Source: Gemmatimonadetes bacterium bin94
GTDB taxonomy: Bacteria; Gemmatimonadota; Gemmatimonadetes; Longimicrobiales; Gaopeijiaceae
Length of the DNA: 64,000 nucleotides
Direction of reading: 5' to 3'
Assembly: GCA_002238865.1 (NCBI GenBank)
Contig: MPNE01000001.1
Span: 1-64,000 of the forward strand
Position 1 is the first letter of the stretch. Every line of letters starts with the position of its first letter. Under the pieces are notes generated by a model, which did no database searches, was not told the origin of the DNA, and saw nothing but the letters and a program-made list of their open reading frames with translations. Positions 40,606-47,455 of the stretch are shown piece by piece. Made by a program: the position numbers and the translations under genes.

Positions 40606-40678
<73 letters not shown>

Positions 40679-40689
40679 CTGATGCTCGA

Positions 40690-40718
40690 GGGGGCGACGG
40701 CGGTTGCCGGACGCCCCC
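40690..40718 (+). other. Stable hairpin between the two tRNAs
   Basis: GGGGGCG (40690-40696) pairs with CGCCCCC (40712-40718); inside, CGGC-GGTT-GCCG extends the stem. It may help processing of a joint tRNA transcript or terminate part of it (two T bases follow). Confidence 0.5.
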
Positions 40719-40726
40719 TTCGTGTC

Positions 40727-40798
<72 letters not shown>

Positions 40799-40814
40799 CT
40801 CGTCTGTACCGGCG

Positions 40815-40881: not shown

Positions 40882-43425
40882 CTATGGAATCAGCCGCCGC
40901 GGCCGGGGCCTCAGCAGGAAGACCCCCTCGTACATGCTCGTGACGACGACCGTACCGCTCTCGAAGAACGGGTAGGCGGTCCACGCACCGACGAAGCCGG
41001 GCGGGTCCCCCTCGTACGGCGTGGTGTCGAACCAGGCGATCTCGCGCGGCGCCTCCGGGTCGCTGATGTCGAAGAGGCGGAAGCCGGCCTGATAGTTGGC
41101 CTGGTACATCCGGTCGCCCTTGACGTACAGGTTGTGGTCGGTGGCGCCGGAGGTCCCGTCCACGCTCCCCACCAGGATGGGGTCGTCCAGCTCCGCCACG
41201 TCGAAGATGAAGGTCCGCGTGGTCGGCGCCGTGCCGACCAGCTCGTCGAGTTCGTCGTCGAGGTAGTAGTACCGCTGGTCGTCGGTGAGCCATCCCTGGT
41301 GGACGTACGCCAGGCCGGGGTAGGTCGCGGTGCCGACGGGGGCCGGCGCCGACTTGTCGGTGACGTCGATGATCCTGAGCGCGGTCTCGTTGGATGCGAA
41401 GCAGAGCTGCCGCCCCTGGAAACGGTCGTCGGGGCCCCGGTACACGACGCACTGGGCGTCGTGGGTGCGCCCCGGGTAGATCAGCCCCTCGGTGTCGGTG
41501 AAGCAGCCCGCGAAGACGGGTGACTTCGGGTCGCGCACGTCCACCATGTGGAGACCGCCGCCGCACGTCTCGCCGCCCCCGCTCGCACCCACCGGGAATG
41601 CGAAGCCGCTCTCCGGGTCCAGCACCAGGTTGTGAGCGCTCGCGATTCCATCGTAGACGGCGTCCGGCTGGAACTCGGCCGGGTCGGGGCCCGCCCCCCG
41701 CACGCGGGTGAGGTCGAAGACGACGAGGCCGTGGTCGCCGGCCCCGTCACCCGTGAAGAAGAGGTGGTCGGCGTAGACCTTCAGGTCGCGTGCGCCGCTG
41801 GGGTTGGCCTGGACCGCTCCGATGTAGCGGGGGGCAGCCGCGTCGGTGACGTCGATGATCGCCGCGCCGCCGGTCCGGCCGACCAGCGCGTACTCGCGCC
41901 CCGTCTCGGGGTCGGTCCATCCCCAGACGTCGCTCACGCGCTCCCCGGGCGCGCCTCCGAGGGCGGAGGCCGGCAGGAATGCGAGGAGATCGACGCCGTC
42001 GCACGAGAATCCCGCCGCGTCGCCGCCGTCGCAGCGCACTTCGCCACTGGTGACGGCCTCGGGACCACCGCCGGGACGCAGCGGCTCGCTTGCCGGCGAC
42101 CAGGATCCGTCCGGCCCCCGGGTGAAGACCATCGCGGCGCCCGCGCCTCCGTCGGCTCCAGGCGCGCCCACGGCGGCGACGGCCGGGCCGAGTGCGATGG
42201 CCGTACCGAAGCCCCCGCCCGCGCCGAACGCCTGCACGCCGTCGTGTACGGTGAGCGCAACCCAGCTCCCGTCCCGGTAGCCGAACAGCGCGACCCGTCC
42301 GGTACCGGGGGCCCCCACCCACATCTCGTCTCCGAGCACCGCGACGGCGCCCCCGAAGCCCTGACGCTCCGGATCGCTCGGAGGCCCCAGCACCTCTGAC
42401 GGCTCCCAGACGCCGTCATCGCCTTGAACGTACGGGAACACAAGACCCGATCCGAGGCGCGCTCCGGGGGCTCCGACAACCAGTCTACCGTCCGCGATGG
42501 CCATGGAGGAGCCGAAGCGGGCGCCCAGCTCGGTCGAGTCAGGCCGGAGCGTAACCGATAGCGACCACGATCCGTTCGTTTCCGTGAAGGCATGCACGGC
42601 ACCGGTGCGGTCCAGGGCGGGGGACGCGACAAACAGGCCGCTCTCGTGGAGGATCAGGGCGCTGCCGAATCCCTCGTCGGTATCTTCGGACGGGCGTGGA
42701 ACCGTGGCGGCCACCGCCCACGCCCCGTCCCGGCCCTGCTCGAAGATGTGCACGGCGGGGGGAGACATCCCGTTGCGGGCGACCGACACGGCCACCCTGT
42801 TGCCGCTGACAGCCGCGACCCGGAGAGGGGGCTGAAGGATCCGCATGATACCCGCGAAGTCCACCGCCGCGCCCCCGGGGCCCGTCCCGGGCCCGGCTTC
42901 CGCCCGCTCCTCTCCCGGTGCGCCGGCCAGCGCGAGGCCTGCCTCATGGACCCAGCCGCCGTTGCCCGTGTCGCGAAACAGGTGCGCCCCGGTCTCCACC
43001 TCCGCGTCACCCGACCCCACCACCAGCCGCCCGTTCCGCCATTCCATCGACGGCGACAACCTGGATCCGCTGGCAGCCGTGCCCGGCGGGGACAGCGTCC
43101 CGGCGAGCACCCACGCACCGGTCCCGGACCTCTCGAAGCGGTAGAGCGCGGCGGGCCCCCGCGCCGCCCCCGGCTTGCCGACGATCACGGTCTCGCCCGC
43201 CACCGCGACCATGCTGCCGAAGTCGTCCTGGACCGCCGCGAAGGCAGGGGTCACGCTCACCACGCCGGTGGCCGCGGCAACCGCGATGCACAGGACTCCG
43301 GCGCCCCTTGCAGCGCGGTGTCCCCTCCGCTCCGGGTTCCGCGCGGAGAGTTCACCACGGGTTGCGAAATCGACCTGGCAGCGGACGCCGGCGCGTCCCG
43401 GCCGGCAACTGGTCACCTTGAACAT
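40882..43425 (-). CDS. Exported choice-of-anchor B family protein with FG-GAP-like propeller
   Basis: 847 residues. Hydrophobic signal-like stretch at ~40-62 (GVLCIAVAAATGVVSVTPAFA) after a long N-terminus. Residues ~65-440 carry FG-GAP/integrin-alpha-like repeats (DDFGSMVAVAGETVIVGKPG, FGSSMAIADGRLVVGAPG, GFGGAVAVLGDEMWVGAPG). Residues ~480-840 are LVIVD-type propeller repeats (GGAAIIDVTDAAAPRYIGAV, ALRIIDVTDKSAPAPVGTAT, GFRLFDISDPEAPREIAWFD) with TADH/HNL motifs typical of the 'choice-of-anchor B' family. Surface or periplasmic; ligand unknown. The start may be internal, nearer the signal segment. Divergent from the AhpD-family gene, 65 bp away. Confidence 0.8.
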   Translation of the reverse strand: MFKVTSCRPGRAGVRCQVDFATRGELSARNPERRGHRAARGAGVLCIAVAAATGVVSVTPAFAAVQDDFGSMVAVAGETVIVGKPGAARGPAALYRFERSGTGAWVLAGTLSPPGTAASGSRLSPSMEWRNGRLVVGSGDAEVETGAHLFRDTGNGGWVHEAGLALAGAPGEERAEAGPGTGPGGAAVDFAGIMRILQPPLRVAAVSGNRVAVSVARNGMSPPAVHIFEQGRDGAWAVAATVPRPSEDTDEGFGSALILHESGLFVASPALDRTGAVHAFTETNGSWSLSVTLRPDSTELGARFGSSMAIADGRLVVGAPGARLGSGLVFPYVQGDDGVWEPSEVLGPPSDPERQGFGGAVAVLGDEMWVGAPGTGRVALFGYRDGSWVALTVHDGVQAFGAGGGFGTAIALGPAVAAVGAPGADGGAGAAMVFTRGPDGSWSPASEPLRPGGGPEAVTSGEVRCDGGDAAGFSCDGVDLLAFLPASALGGAPGERVSDVWGWTDPETGREYALVGRTGGAAIIDVTDAAAPRYIGAVQANPSGARDLKVYADHLFFTGDGAGDHGLVVFDLTRVRGAGPDPAEFQPDAVYDGIASAHNLVLDPESGFAFPVGASGGGETCGGGLHMVDVRDPKSPVFAGCFTDTEGLIYPGRTHDAQCVVYRGPDDRFQGRQLCFASNETALRIIDVTDKSAPAPVGTATYPGLAYVHQGWLTDDQRYYYLDDELDELVGTAPTTRTFIFDVAELDDPILVGSVDGTSGATDHNLYVKGDRMYQANYQAGFRLFDISDPEAPREIAWFDTTPYEGDPPGFVGAWTAYPFFESGTVVVTSMYEGVFLLRPRPRRLIP

Positions 43426-43490: not shown

Positions 43491-44090
43491 ATGGCTCACA
43501 TACGGTACGCATCCCCCGCGGAAGCGGGCTCGGAACTGGCCGAGCTTTACGCGCGTTACGCCGACCGGGCGGGGAACCTCGACAACATTCTCCGGATACA
43601 TTCCCTCAACCCACCTTCGTTGGAGCATCACTACGACCTCTATCGCCACCTCATGGCCGGGCCCTCCCCGCTGTCGCGGCAGCAGCGCGAGATGATCGCG
43701 GTCGCGGTGTCGGCCGAGAACGACTGCTTCTACTGAATTAACCACCACGGAGCGGGCCTCCGTCGTCTGACCGGCACGGCCGACCTGGCGAATGCGCTCG
43801 CCAGAGGCCGGCGGCCGGACTTGCTCACCGACAGGGACACGGTCATGCTCGACTACGCCGTCAAGCTGACCCGGGATCCGGGGGGAATGACCGCGGACGA
43901 TGTGGAGGCGCTGCGGGAAGCCGGCTTCGGCGACCGGGCGGTCCTCGACATCTGCCAGGTGGTGTCCTACTACAACTACGTGAACCGTCTGGCCGACGGC
44001 CTCGGAGTCGAACTGGAGGAGGAGTGGAGCGATGCGGACCATACCATGACCCGGGACGAATTCGACGCGCAGCGGGACACCTCCCCGTGA
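43491..44090 (+). CDS. AhpD-family peroxidase-like selenoprotein (CxxU; UGA at codon 82)
   Basis: 199 residues if the in-frame TGA at 43734-43736 is read as selenocysteine. The first part ends REMIAVAVSAENDCFY, then TGA, then INHHGAGLRRLTGTADLANA, continuing in the same frame to DGLGVELEEEW and a normal stop. Carboxymuconolactone decarboxylase/AhpD 'peroxidase-related' proteins have CFYCxxHHG here, so Sec replaces exactly the second catalytic Cys, giving C79-F-Y-U82 with His at +4 (H86) as in AhpD. Similarity is continuous on both sides and total length fits. A SECIS-like hairpin follows. Probable role: thiol/selenol peroxide reduction. The stop overlaps the hutH GTG. Alternatives: a nonsense mutation or a base error. 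Confidence 0.82.
43744..43766 (+). promoter_or_regulatory. Candidate bacterial SECIS hairpin
   Basis: Stem ACGGAG (43747-43752) with CTCCGT (43758-43763), loop CGGGC; beyond a C-C mismatch, AC (43744-43745) pairs with GT (43765-43766). The apical loop begins 16 bases after the UGA and has G at its second position. Both fit the general bacterial SECIS model recognised by SelB (short stem just after UGA, loop with an early G). The exact energy and specificity were not computed. Confidence 0.6.
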
Positions 44091-45757
44091 TCACGGTCGA
44101 CGGACACGGGCTGACCCTCGCGGAGGTTGAAGCGGTGGCGGTCGGCGGCGCCCAGGTCCGGCTGCACGAAGACGCCGCGGCACGGATACGCCGCTCGCGA
44201 AGTCTTCTCGACCGCCTCCTCGAGGGAGACGCCCCCGTGTATGGCGTGAACACCGGTTTCGGGCGGCTCGCCGACGTGCGCATCTCGCGTGACGATCAGT
44301 TCGCGCTCCAGCGAAACCTGGTGAGGAGCCACGCCGCAGGGACCGGCCGCCCCCTCCCGGACGCGGAGGTGCGCGCAATCCTGCTTCTCAGGGCCAACAC
44401 CCTGGCCCGGGGACAGTCCGGGTGCCGCCTGGTCGTGGTCGAGCGTCTGCTGGAGCTGCTCAACCGCGCCGTCCACCCCGTCGTGCCCGAGATCGGGTCT
44501 GTGGGCGCGAGCGGCGACCTGGCCCCGCTCGCCCACGTCGCCCTCGCGCTGACGGGAGAGGGCAGGGCCGTAGCCGACGGCAGGGAGGGTGACGCCGGGC
44601 GGCTCATGGGCGCGGCGGGGATCGCACCGCTGCAGCTTGCCGAGAAGGAGGGCCTGGCGCTGGTCAACGGCACCCAGGCCACCACCGGGATCGGGATCCT
44701 GGCAGTGGGGCGCTTCGGCCGCGCGCTCGAAACCGCCGATGTGGCTGGCGCCATGTCGCTGGAAGGGGTGCGCGGGTCTCCCGCCCCCTTCCGCGCCGAA
44801 ATACACAATGCGCGGCCGCACCCGGGCCAGATCGCCAGCGCGCGGCGCCTGAGGGCGTTGCTGGAGGGCTCGGAGATCCGCGAGTCGCACAGGGAAGGGG
44901 ATACGCGCGTCCAGGATCCCTACTCGCTCCGCTGCATGCCGCAGGTCCATGGGGCCGCCCGCGAAGCGTACGGGTACGCGAGCCGCATCCTCACAACGGA
45001 AGCGAATTCGACCACGGACAACCCGCTTGTTCTGGCCGACGGGGGCACCGACGGTGAAGTCGGCGCGGATTCGTCCGGCGGCCTGGTCGTGAGCGGCGGC
45101 AACTTCCACGCGCAGGTGGTTGCGCAGAGCCTGGACCTCGTCGCCATCGCGGCGGCCGACCTGGCCTCGATCTCGGAACGGCGGACCGACCGGCTCCTCA
45201 ACCCCGACCTTTCCGGCCTGCCCGCCTTCCTGACCCCCGACCCCGGAACCCGCTCCGGCCTCATGATCGTCCAGGTTGTCGCGGCCGACGCCCTGTCGGA
45301 GATGCGCGTCCTCGCCAACCCCGCCAGTTCGGACTCGGTTCCCACCTGCGCTTCTCAGGAAGACCACGTCTCCATGGGGATGGCCGCGGCGAGAAAGCTT
45401 CGCCGAAGCATGGAGCTGCTGGAAATCGTTCTGGCGGTCGAGATTCTCTGCGCCGCGCAGGCCGTGGAGTTCCACCGGCCGTTGCGCGCCGGGCAGGGCG
45501 TGGAGCGAGCGCTGAAAACGGTGCGCGATCGTGTAGCCCGCCTCGACGAAGACAGGATCCTCGGGGGTGACATCGAGATCCTTCGCGACCTGGTGGCTGC
45601 GGGCGCGTTTGCGGAACAGGATGCGGCCGCGGCGCAAGCCGAGGCGGCCGCTGCACAAGCGGTCGCTGCCGCTGGGCAAGCAGCCGCTGCCGCCGCACGA
45701 GCCGACGCAGCCGCTGCACATTCCGACGCTTCCTCTCCCGCCGGCGAGTCTCGATAA
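44087..45757 (+). CDS. hutH: Histidine ammonia-lyase
   Basis: 556 residues from GTG overlapping the selenoprotein stop (GTGA). MIO-forming triad Ala-Ser-Gly at ~141-143 in GSVGASGDLAPLAH; also VYGVNTGFGRLADV, NGTQATTGIGI, EANSTTDNPLV and QEDHVSMGM. Converts histidine to urocanate. The core ends near residue 510; a further ~45 residues form an Ala/Gln-rich tail (AAAAQAEAAAAQAVAAAGQA and onward), unusual for HutH. First hut enzyme, with hutU 12 bp on. Confidence 0.96.
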   Translation: MITVDGHGLTLAEVEAVAVGGAQVRLHEDAAARIRRSRSLLDRLLEGDAPVYGVNTGFGRLADVRISRDDQFALQRNLVRSHAAGTGRPLPDAEVRAILLLRANTLARGQSGCRLVVVERLLELLNRAVHPVVPEIGSVGASGDLAPLAHVALALTGEGRAVADGREGDAGRLMGAAGIAPLQLAEKEGLALVNGTQATTGIGILAVGRFGRALETADVAGAMSLEGVRGSPAPFRAEIHNARPHPGQIASARRLRALLEGSEIRESHREGDTRVQDPYSLRCMPQVHGAAREAYGYASRILTTEANSTTDNPLVLADGGTDGEVGADSSGGLVVSGGNFHAQVVAQSLDLVAIAAADLASISERRTDRLLNPDLSGLPAFLTPDPGTRSGLMIVQVVAADALSEMRVLANPASSDSVPTCASQEDHVSMGMAAARKLRRSMELLEIVLAVEILCAAQAVEFHRPLRAGQGVERALKTVRDRVARLDEDRILGGDIEILRDLVAAGAFAEQDAAAAQAEAAAAQAVAAAGQAAAAAARADAAAAHSDASSPAGESR

Positions 45758-45769
45758 GGACGATCCGAC

Positions 45770-47455
45770 ATGCAGCCCACCACGACGCGCTCCACCGCAC
45801 CCGCATCCGGTCCCCGGACCGTCCTCGCGCCGCGCGGCACCACGCTCAGGTGCAAGGGCTGGACCCAGGAAGCCGCGCTCCGCATGCTCATGAACAACCT
45901 GGATCCGGCGGTCGCCGAGCAGCCGGACGAGCTGGTGGTCTACGGCGGCACCGGCCGGGCCGCGCGGAGCTGGGCCGCATTCGACGCCATCGTCTCGGCC
46001 CTGGAGCAGCTGGAGGGCGACGAAACCCTCCTGGTTCAGTCCGGCAAGCCCGTCGGGGTCTTCCGCACGCACCGGCATGCCCCGCGGGTGTTGATCGCCA
46101 ACTCGAATCTGGTGGGCCGCTGGGCCACCTGGGAGCACTTTCACGAGCTGGAGCGCCAGGGGCTGATGATGTACGGTCAGATGACCGCCGGTTCGTGGAT
46201 CTACATCGGGACGCAGGGGATCCTCCAGGGAACGTACGAGACCTTCGGCGCCATGGCGCGGAGGCACTTCGGCGGGTCGCTCTCCGGCCGATGGATCCTC
46301 ACAGGCGGCATGGGCGGCATGGGCGGCGCACAGCCGCTCGCGGCCACGATGAACGGCGCAGCCATCCTGGTGGTCGAAGTCGACCCCGAGCGGATCCGGC
46401 GCCGGATCGAGACGCGCTACTGCGACCGCATGACCGACGACCTGGACGAGGCGTTGGCGTGGCTGCGGGAGGCGACCGAAGCGGGGCAGGCGGTTTCGGT
46501 GGGGCTGGTGGGGAACTGCGCCGATGTCCTCCCCGAGCTGAACCGGCGCGGGATCACCCCCGATATCGTGACCGACCAGACCTCGGCCCACGACCCCGTG
46601 GACGGCTACGTGCCTTGCGGTTTCTCGATCGATGAGGCGTCCGTCTTGCGAAAGCACGATCGAACCGAATATCGCTTGCACGCGATGGCGTCGATCCGCA
46701 GGCACTGTGAAGCCATCGTGGAGATGACCAGGCGGGGTGCTATCGCGGTCGACTACGGCAACAACCTGCGCGGCTATGCGCACGAGGCCGGCTTCGAGGA
46801 CGCGTTTTCGTATCCGGGCTTCGTTCCCGCGTACGTCCGCCCCCTCTTCTGCCTCGGCAAGGGCCCCTTTCGGTGGGTCGCGCTGTCGGGCGACCCTGCC
46901 GACATCCACCGCACCGACGACCTTGTGCTGGACATGTTCCCCCGGGACGAACACCTCTGTCGCTGGATCCGCATGGCGCGCGAGCAGGTAGCTTTTCAGG
47001 GGCTTCCTGCGCGGATCTGCTGGCTGGGCCAGGGGGAGCGGGCGCGCTTCGGCGTCGCCATGAACGAACTGGTCGCCAGCGGCGAGGTCAGCGCTCCCAT
47101 CGTGATCGGGCGCGACCACCTGGACACGGGGTCGGTGGCGTCGCCGTACCGCGAGACGGAGGGGATGAAGGACGGGACCGACGCGGTCGCCGACTGGCCC
47201 GTCCTGAATGCGCTGCTGAACACCGCCTCGGGGGCGAGCTGGGTGTCGTTTCACCATGGGGGCGGCGTGGGGATCGGGGACTCGCTGCACGCGGGCCAGG
47301 TGCTGGTTGCCGACGGAACGCCGGAGATGCGCACCCGGATCGAGCGCGTGCTGACGAACGATCCGGGGCTGGGGGTGGCCAGGCACGCGGACGCGGGGTA
47401 CGAGGCCGCGCAGGCGACGGCCCGGGAGAAGGGGGTCAGGATCCCGATGGGGTGA
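45770..47455 (+). CDS. hutU: Urocanate hydratase
   Basis: 561 residues. Typical blocks: [40 protein letters not shown], the NAD-binding [15 protein letters not shown] (~177-191), [14 protein letters not shown] and [16 protein letters not shown]. Converts urocanate to imidazolonepropionate using tightly bound NAD. Second gene of the hutHU unit. Confidence 0.97.

Follow-up and report, generated by a model that had tools for sequence, protein, structure and literature searches.

Does the in-frame UGA codon of an AhpD-like gene in Gemmatimonadetes bacterium bin94 end translation, or is it read as selenocysteine (Sec) with the help of a hairpin just downstream? The window analysed here is a 64,000-nucleotide stretch of this genome (contig MPNE01000001.1, positions 1 to 64,000 of the forward strand). 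An earlier note, made from its letters alone, had proposed that the hairpin is a bacterial SECIS. This proposal is supported by relatives, frozen codons, two compensatory changes and the genes of the Sec machinery, and we consider it almost certain that the hairpin is a bacterial SECIS for Sec at the UGA, giving a full AhpD-like protein that is a probable peroxidase or related antioxidant enzyme. A recoding site predicted from raw sequence alone is now well supported.

A UGA codon at a redox position

43491..44090, + strand: AhpD-like/peroxidase-related gene, predicted selenoprotein (translation with TGA read as U; family matches; the codon is also TGA in orthologs)
43734..43736, + strand: UGA predicted to be read as Sec, which as residue 82 would be the second redox residue in C79-F-Y-U82

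When the internal TGA is read as a residue, the gene is a single 199-residue frame from the ATG at 43491 to the stop TGA at 44088-44090. In profile searches it matches TIGR01926 (peroxidase-related) with 144.9 bits (curated cut-off 81.8, E 2.1e-42) and PF02627, also above cut-off; these matches extend across the UGA, and the frame is open on both sides. The PDB relatives 3c1l, 2pfx and 6k40, found by sequence search, have a Cys where this gene has the UGA, so that the in-frame UGA stands at the second Cys of CxxC and is Cys in homologs. Relative to the UGA, Glu -15, Cys -3 and His +4 are kept in all 71 UGA orthologs of the class. The Glu lies 12 residues before the Cys of the redox motif, and together with the His it presumably corresponds to the proton relay of AhpD. 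The catalytic activity of the protein is most likely that of a thiol/selenol peroxidase or a related antioxidant enzyme. The standard code splits the gene with a stop at 43736; as the UGA is very probably a recoding site, this annotation should be corrected.

Relatives were drawn from two overlapping sets, the union of which comprises 100 distinct 54-nt stretches. The class search covered 394 genomes, 157 of them with a match. Part of these matches was examined, beginning with 90 loci that comprised 71 UGA genes of the same type, 13 Cys genes and 6 paralogs with UGA; 20 further loci were added afterwards. Contigs were also scanned across phyla with the peptide patterns HHGAGLR[RKT][LI] and VNR[LM]ADGLG, from which the best 80 of 249 relatives were taken; such a set is biased towards genes close to the UGA form and is unsuited to counting UGA against Cys. 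The record labels of these best 80 of 249 include Gemmatimonadota, Phycisphaerae or Planctomycetota, Acidobacteriota, SAR324, KSB1, Chloroflexi, Zixibacteriota, Caldithrix, Halobacteroidaceae, Bacteroidetes and others. For alignment by column, the window was combined with 75 of the 80 loci, and L138, L140, L148, L200 and L208 were omitted as duplicates or near-duplicates.

The hairpin and its fold

43747..43763, + strand: core of the predicted bacterial SECIS, stem ACGGAG/CTCCGT and loop CGGGC (fold and conservation)
43744..43766, + strand: the same hairpin lengthened beyond a C/C mismatch by outer AC/GT pairs (fold; outer pairs not conserved)

The arms of the hairpin occupy 43747-43752 and 43758-43763 and the loop 43753-43757, with G43754 at loop position 2 and 16 nt between the UGA and the loop; sequence and fold both agree with the stem, loop and spacing first described. 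Beyond the C/C mismatch, the pairs A43744-U43766 and C43745-G43765 are possible. The figure legend of a review gives the constraints on bacterial SECIS elements as a loop of 3-9 nt, a stem of 4-16 bp, a spacing of 16-37 nt and a G within the first two loop positions (PMC13188914). With a 5-nt loop, a 6-bp stem, the loop G and a 16-nt spacing, the shortest that the published range allows, the hairpin lies within these limits (PMC13188914). It departs from the consensus in two respects: its primary sequence varies very little among the examined loci, and the published energy threshold (MFE at or below -7.5 kcal/mol) is reached only through the non-conserved outer pairs, as the value of -8.5 kcal/mol for 43734-43773 includes them and the six-pair core alone has -6.9 kcal/mol.

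A check of the fold had been suggested in the earlier note. The hairpin is the MFE structure of 43734-43773, but its stability is not better than that of dinucleotide shuffles of this stretch (z +0.21; 110 of 200 fold at least as well), and over the longer stretch 43724-43800 (77 nt) the MFE structure is a different one. In 24 of 60 synonymous resamplings of the gene, too, a SECIS-like hairpin of equal or greater stability appeared. Because shuffles and resamplings do equally well, the hairpin of one sequence is at the chance level for GC-rich DNA; single-sequence thermodynamics does not separate it from chance and was not counted as support, in keeping with the original caution that the hairpin alone was supporting evidence rather than proof. 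An Rfam search of the window at gathering thresholds returned two tRNAs and nothing else.

Such values would be expected of a chance structure in GC-rich DNA, following a UGA that arose in an AhpD-like pseudogene by nonsense mutation or was a sequencing error. The relatives contradict this. TGA occupies the same codon in the 71 class orthologs and in all 80 scan loci (best 80 of 249), and the downstream frames are intact; conserved TGA and conserved downstream frame together refute the pseudogene explanation. The frozen synonymous sites and the full set of Sec machinery genes described below also speak against it, and its probability is close to nil.

Conservation of the hairpin among relatives

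An energy-based scan picks other hairpins in some genes, so pairs were counted in a fixed register instead. In the class, the five core pairs together with a G at loop position 1 or 2 occur in 70 of 71 UGA relatives and in none of the 13 Cys relatives, the comparison for which the earlier note had called; the Cys relatives are diverged subfamilies, so that their missing hairpin partly reflects divergence of the protein. The one exception, L087, has no hairpin in the standard register and can form a shifted one (CGCGGAG-GGT-CTCCGCG). Among the scan loci (best 80 of 249), the inner four pairs and the loop G are present in 80 of 80 and all five pairs in 77.

In this set, only L192 (KSB1) and L210 (Chloroflexi) have U for C at column 15, and the same two loci are the only ones with A for G at column 29, where the encoded Arg becomes His (best 80 of 249). 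These are two compensatory changes from C-G to U-A. The 15-29 pair is broken in L185, L191 and L206 (best 80 of 249), all three of which have G24, able to pair with C20, and 14 of the 75 distinct aligned sequences from the same scan lack the 14-30 pair. The extra AC/GT pairing past the mismatch, which had been counted as part of the hairpin, did not survive the comparison: the 12-32 pair forms in 51 of the 75 distinct aligned sequences (best 80 of 249) and the outer pair A11-U33 in just one, and the outer extension is therefore not part of the element. It is thus the comparison among relatives, and not the fold of a single sequence, that places the hairpin beyond chance.

Selection on synonymous sites

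Much of the stem lies within an invariant peptide, as would be expected if the conservation were wholly at the level of the protein (its HHGAGLR motif) combined with codon bias. Codon choice was compared with expectations from the codon use of the gene concerned, for a set of 53 sequences with less than 75% identity after thinning. Third positions are frozen where they are paired: Gly+5 is GGR in 53 of 53 (expected 24.3), Leu+8 is CTY (CTC or CTT) in 53 of 53 (expected 22.8), Arg+9 is CGT in 40 of 49 (expected 7.3) and His+4 is CAC in 51 of 53 (expected 36.2). Ala+6, the third base of which is the loop G, is GCG in 52 of 52 (expected 17.5). At Gly+7 the third base occupies the final loop position and varies freely (GGT, GGC or GGA in 40 of 51; expected 36.8), and the neighbouring conserved codons Leu+11 and Gly+13, taken as controls, match expectation. 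The lowest P among the other conserved columns tested outside +3 to +9 was 5.6e-4; P values in this test ignore the shared ancestry that remains after thinning at 75%.

This pattern of frozen and free positions refutes an explanation by protein and codon bias; paralogs with a different peptide that retain a different hairpin with matched changes (see below) also speak against it, and we give that explanation practically no credence. On the SECIS reading, the hairpin is a clear natural case of synonymous selection imposed by a SECIS: across loci ranging from Gemmatimonadota to SAR324, paired third positions are frozen and a loop position is free. At codon +3 (window 43743-43745), His is encoded by CAT rather than CAC more often than expected (34 versus 16.8 in the 53 thinned relatives), next to a His+4 that is CAC; avoidance of extra pairing is perhaps the reason.

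Selenocysteine machinery

The genome encodes what insertion of Sec would need. Profile searches found selA (487.9 bits), selB (306.6 bits) and selD (388.4 bits; L018, G000:C34:18385-19308), and a tRNA-Sec with anticodon TCA scored 79.7 bits; selA, selB, selC and selD are accordingly all present in the host, and the contig of the window (C22) itself also carries selA, selB and the tRNA-Sec. One in-frame TGA lies within the selD match, so that SelD is probably a selenoprotein here as well. Within the class, 67 of the 71 UGA genes, against 2 of the 13 Cys genes, come from genomes with a selA match (Fisher P 5e-9; table read by eye). The four UGA genes without a selA match are in G171, G256, G079 and G382, assemblies that are 82-89% complete.

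These genes bear on a further possibility, namely that the UGA is passed in some other way (general suppression, reassignment or a programmed read-through mixture) and that the conserved stretch serves, for example, pausing. A conserved RNA segment past a stop codon fits programmed read-through in general terms. However, the UGA takes the place of the redox Cys, TGA also terminates frames in the window, the AhpD-like gene included, the presence of selA tracks the UGA genes and the genome has a tRNA-Sec with a TCA anticodon; we regard read-through of this kind as very improbable.

For Sec insertion, we infer that SelB carrying Sec-tRNA(Sec) would bind the apical loop of the hairpin on the mRNA and deliver Sec at the UGA 16 nt upstream of the loop. 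The ribosome would then continue rather than stop after residue 81, producing a 199-residue protein with a C-F-Y-U redox centre in which Sec replaces the C-terminal Cys of C-x-x-C.

Known families and a second copy

Neither the kind of protein (AhpD-like CxxU) nor the kind of signal is new; what is new is the present copy. An 'AhpD-like protein, TIGR01926, CxxU' is among the selenoproteins in a table of a review (PMC13188914), and two surveys describe an AhpD-like selenoprotein family found in Sargasso Sea data in 2005, with 27 sequences (PMC1088965), and AhpD-like 1 (COG2128) and AhpD-like 2 in the 2008 GOS study (PMC2398784). As AhpD-like CxxU proteins have been published since 2005, the present gene adds to a known kind. 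It shares with that family (COG2128/TIGR01926) the same model, the CxxU motif, the UGA at the same redox position and a SECIS close downstream, and differs in nothing of kind; this copy is in a Gemmatimonadota-related genome and precedes hutH. Another family, NF041238 AhpD_rel_CFYUT (alkylhydroperoxidase-related (seleno)protein), has a related AhpD domain and bears the CFYU motif in its name, but membership was rejected, as the gene scores 65.3 bits against a curated cut-off of 175.

L115 (G000:C66:4001-4492, - strand), another AhpD-like gene of this genome with a UGA, has the peptide CFYUTQAHAHDLR, and the hairpin after its UGA differs (TGACCTC-CGGGCC-GAGGTCG). Among 21 genes of this type, counted by eye, GAC occurs with GAGGTC or GAGGTT in 11 and GAT with GAGATC in 10. 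The GAT/GAGATC genes are mostly of one genus, so this change may be a single event.

Association with hutH

44087..45757, + strand: hutH, histidine ammonia-lyase (TIGR01225, 648.9 bits, above cut-off)
45770..47455, + strand: hutU, urocanate hydratase, next in the hut run (TIGR01228, 945 bits)
40882-43425, - strand: choice-of-anchor B family protein gene

The GTG start of hutH at 44087 overlaps the stop of the AhpD-like gene by 4 nt (GTGA). Among the best 80 of 249 relatives, with flanks of at most 2.5 kb, hutH follows the AhpD-like gene in 41 of 50 Gemmatimonadota loci (assigned by title) versus 0 of 30 others; the 4-nt overlap is present in 34 of these 41 Gemmatimonadota loci by letters and in 33 with an open hutH frame. 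The overlap was noted at 44087 in the window and in most of the Gemmatimonadota loci with hutH in the series L136-L198.

This arrangement raises a testable question about the role of an uncharacterised peroxidase-like selenoprotein. Through the overlap, translation of hutH in Gemmatimonadota could be coupled to successful insertion of Sec. If so, ribosomes short of selenium would stop at the UGA, some 350 nt before hutH, little hutH would be made and histidine breakdown would be gated by selenium. We think such coupling unlikely: three genomes of the same genus (G120, G167 and G185) have hutH without an intact selenoprotein gene upstream, and hutH could have a ribosome-binding site of its own. 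Literature searches for a link of hutH or histidine ammonia-lyase with AhpD-like proteins brought up no paper that appeared relevant. In G167 (L231), a remnant matching residues 162-197 of the AhpD-like protein lies just upstream of hutH and looks like a lost AhpD-like copy.

Farther upstream in the window, tRNA-Gly and tRNA-Cys genes at 40606-40799 adjoin the gene for the choice-of-anchor B family protein.
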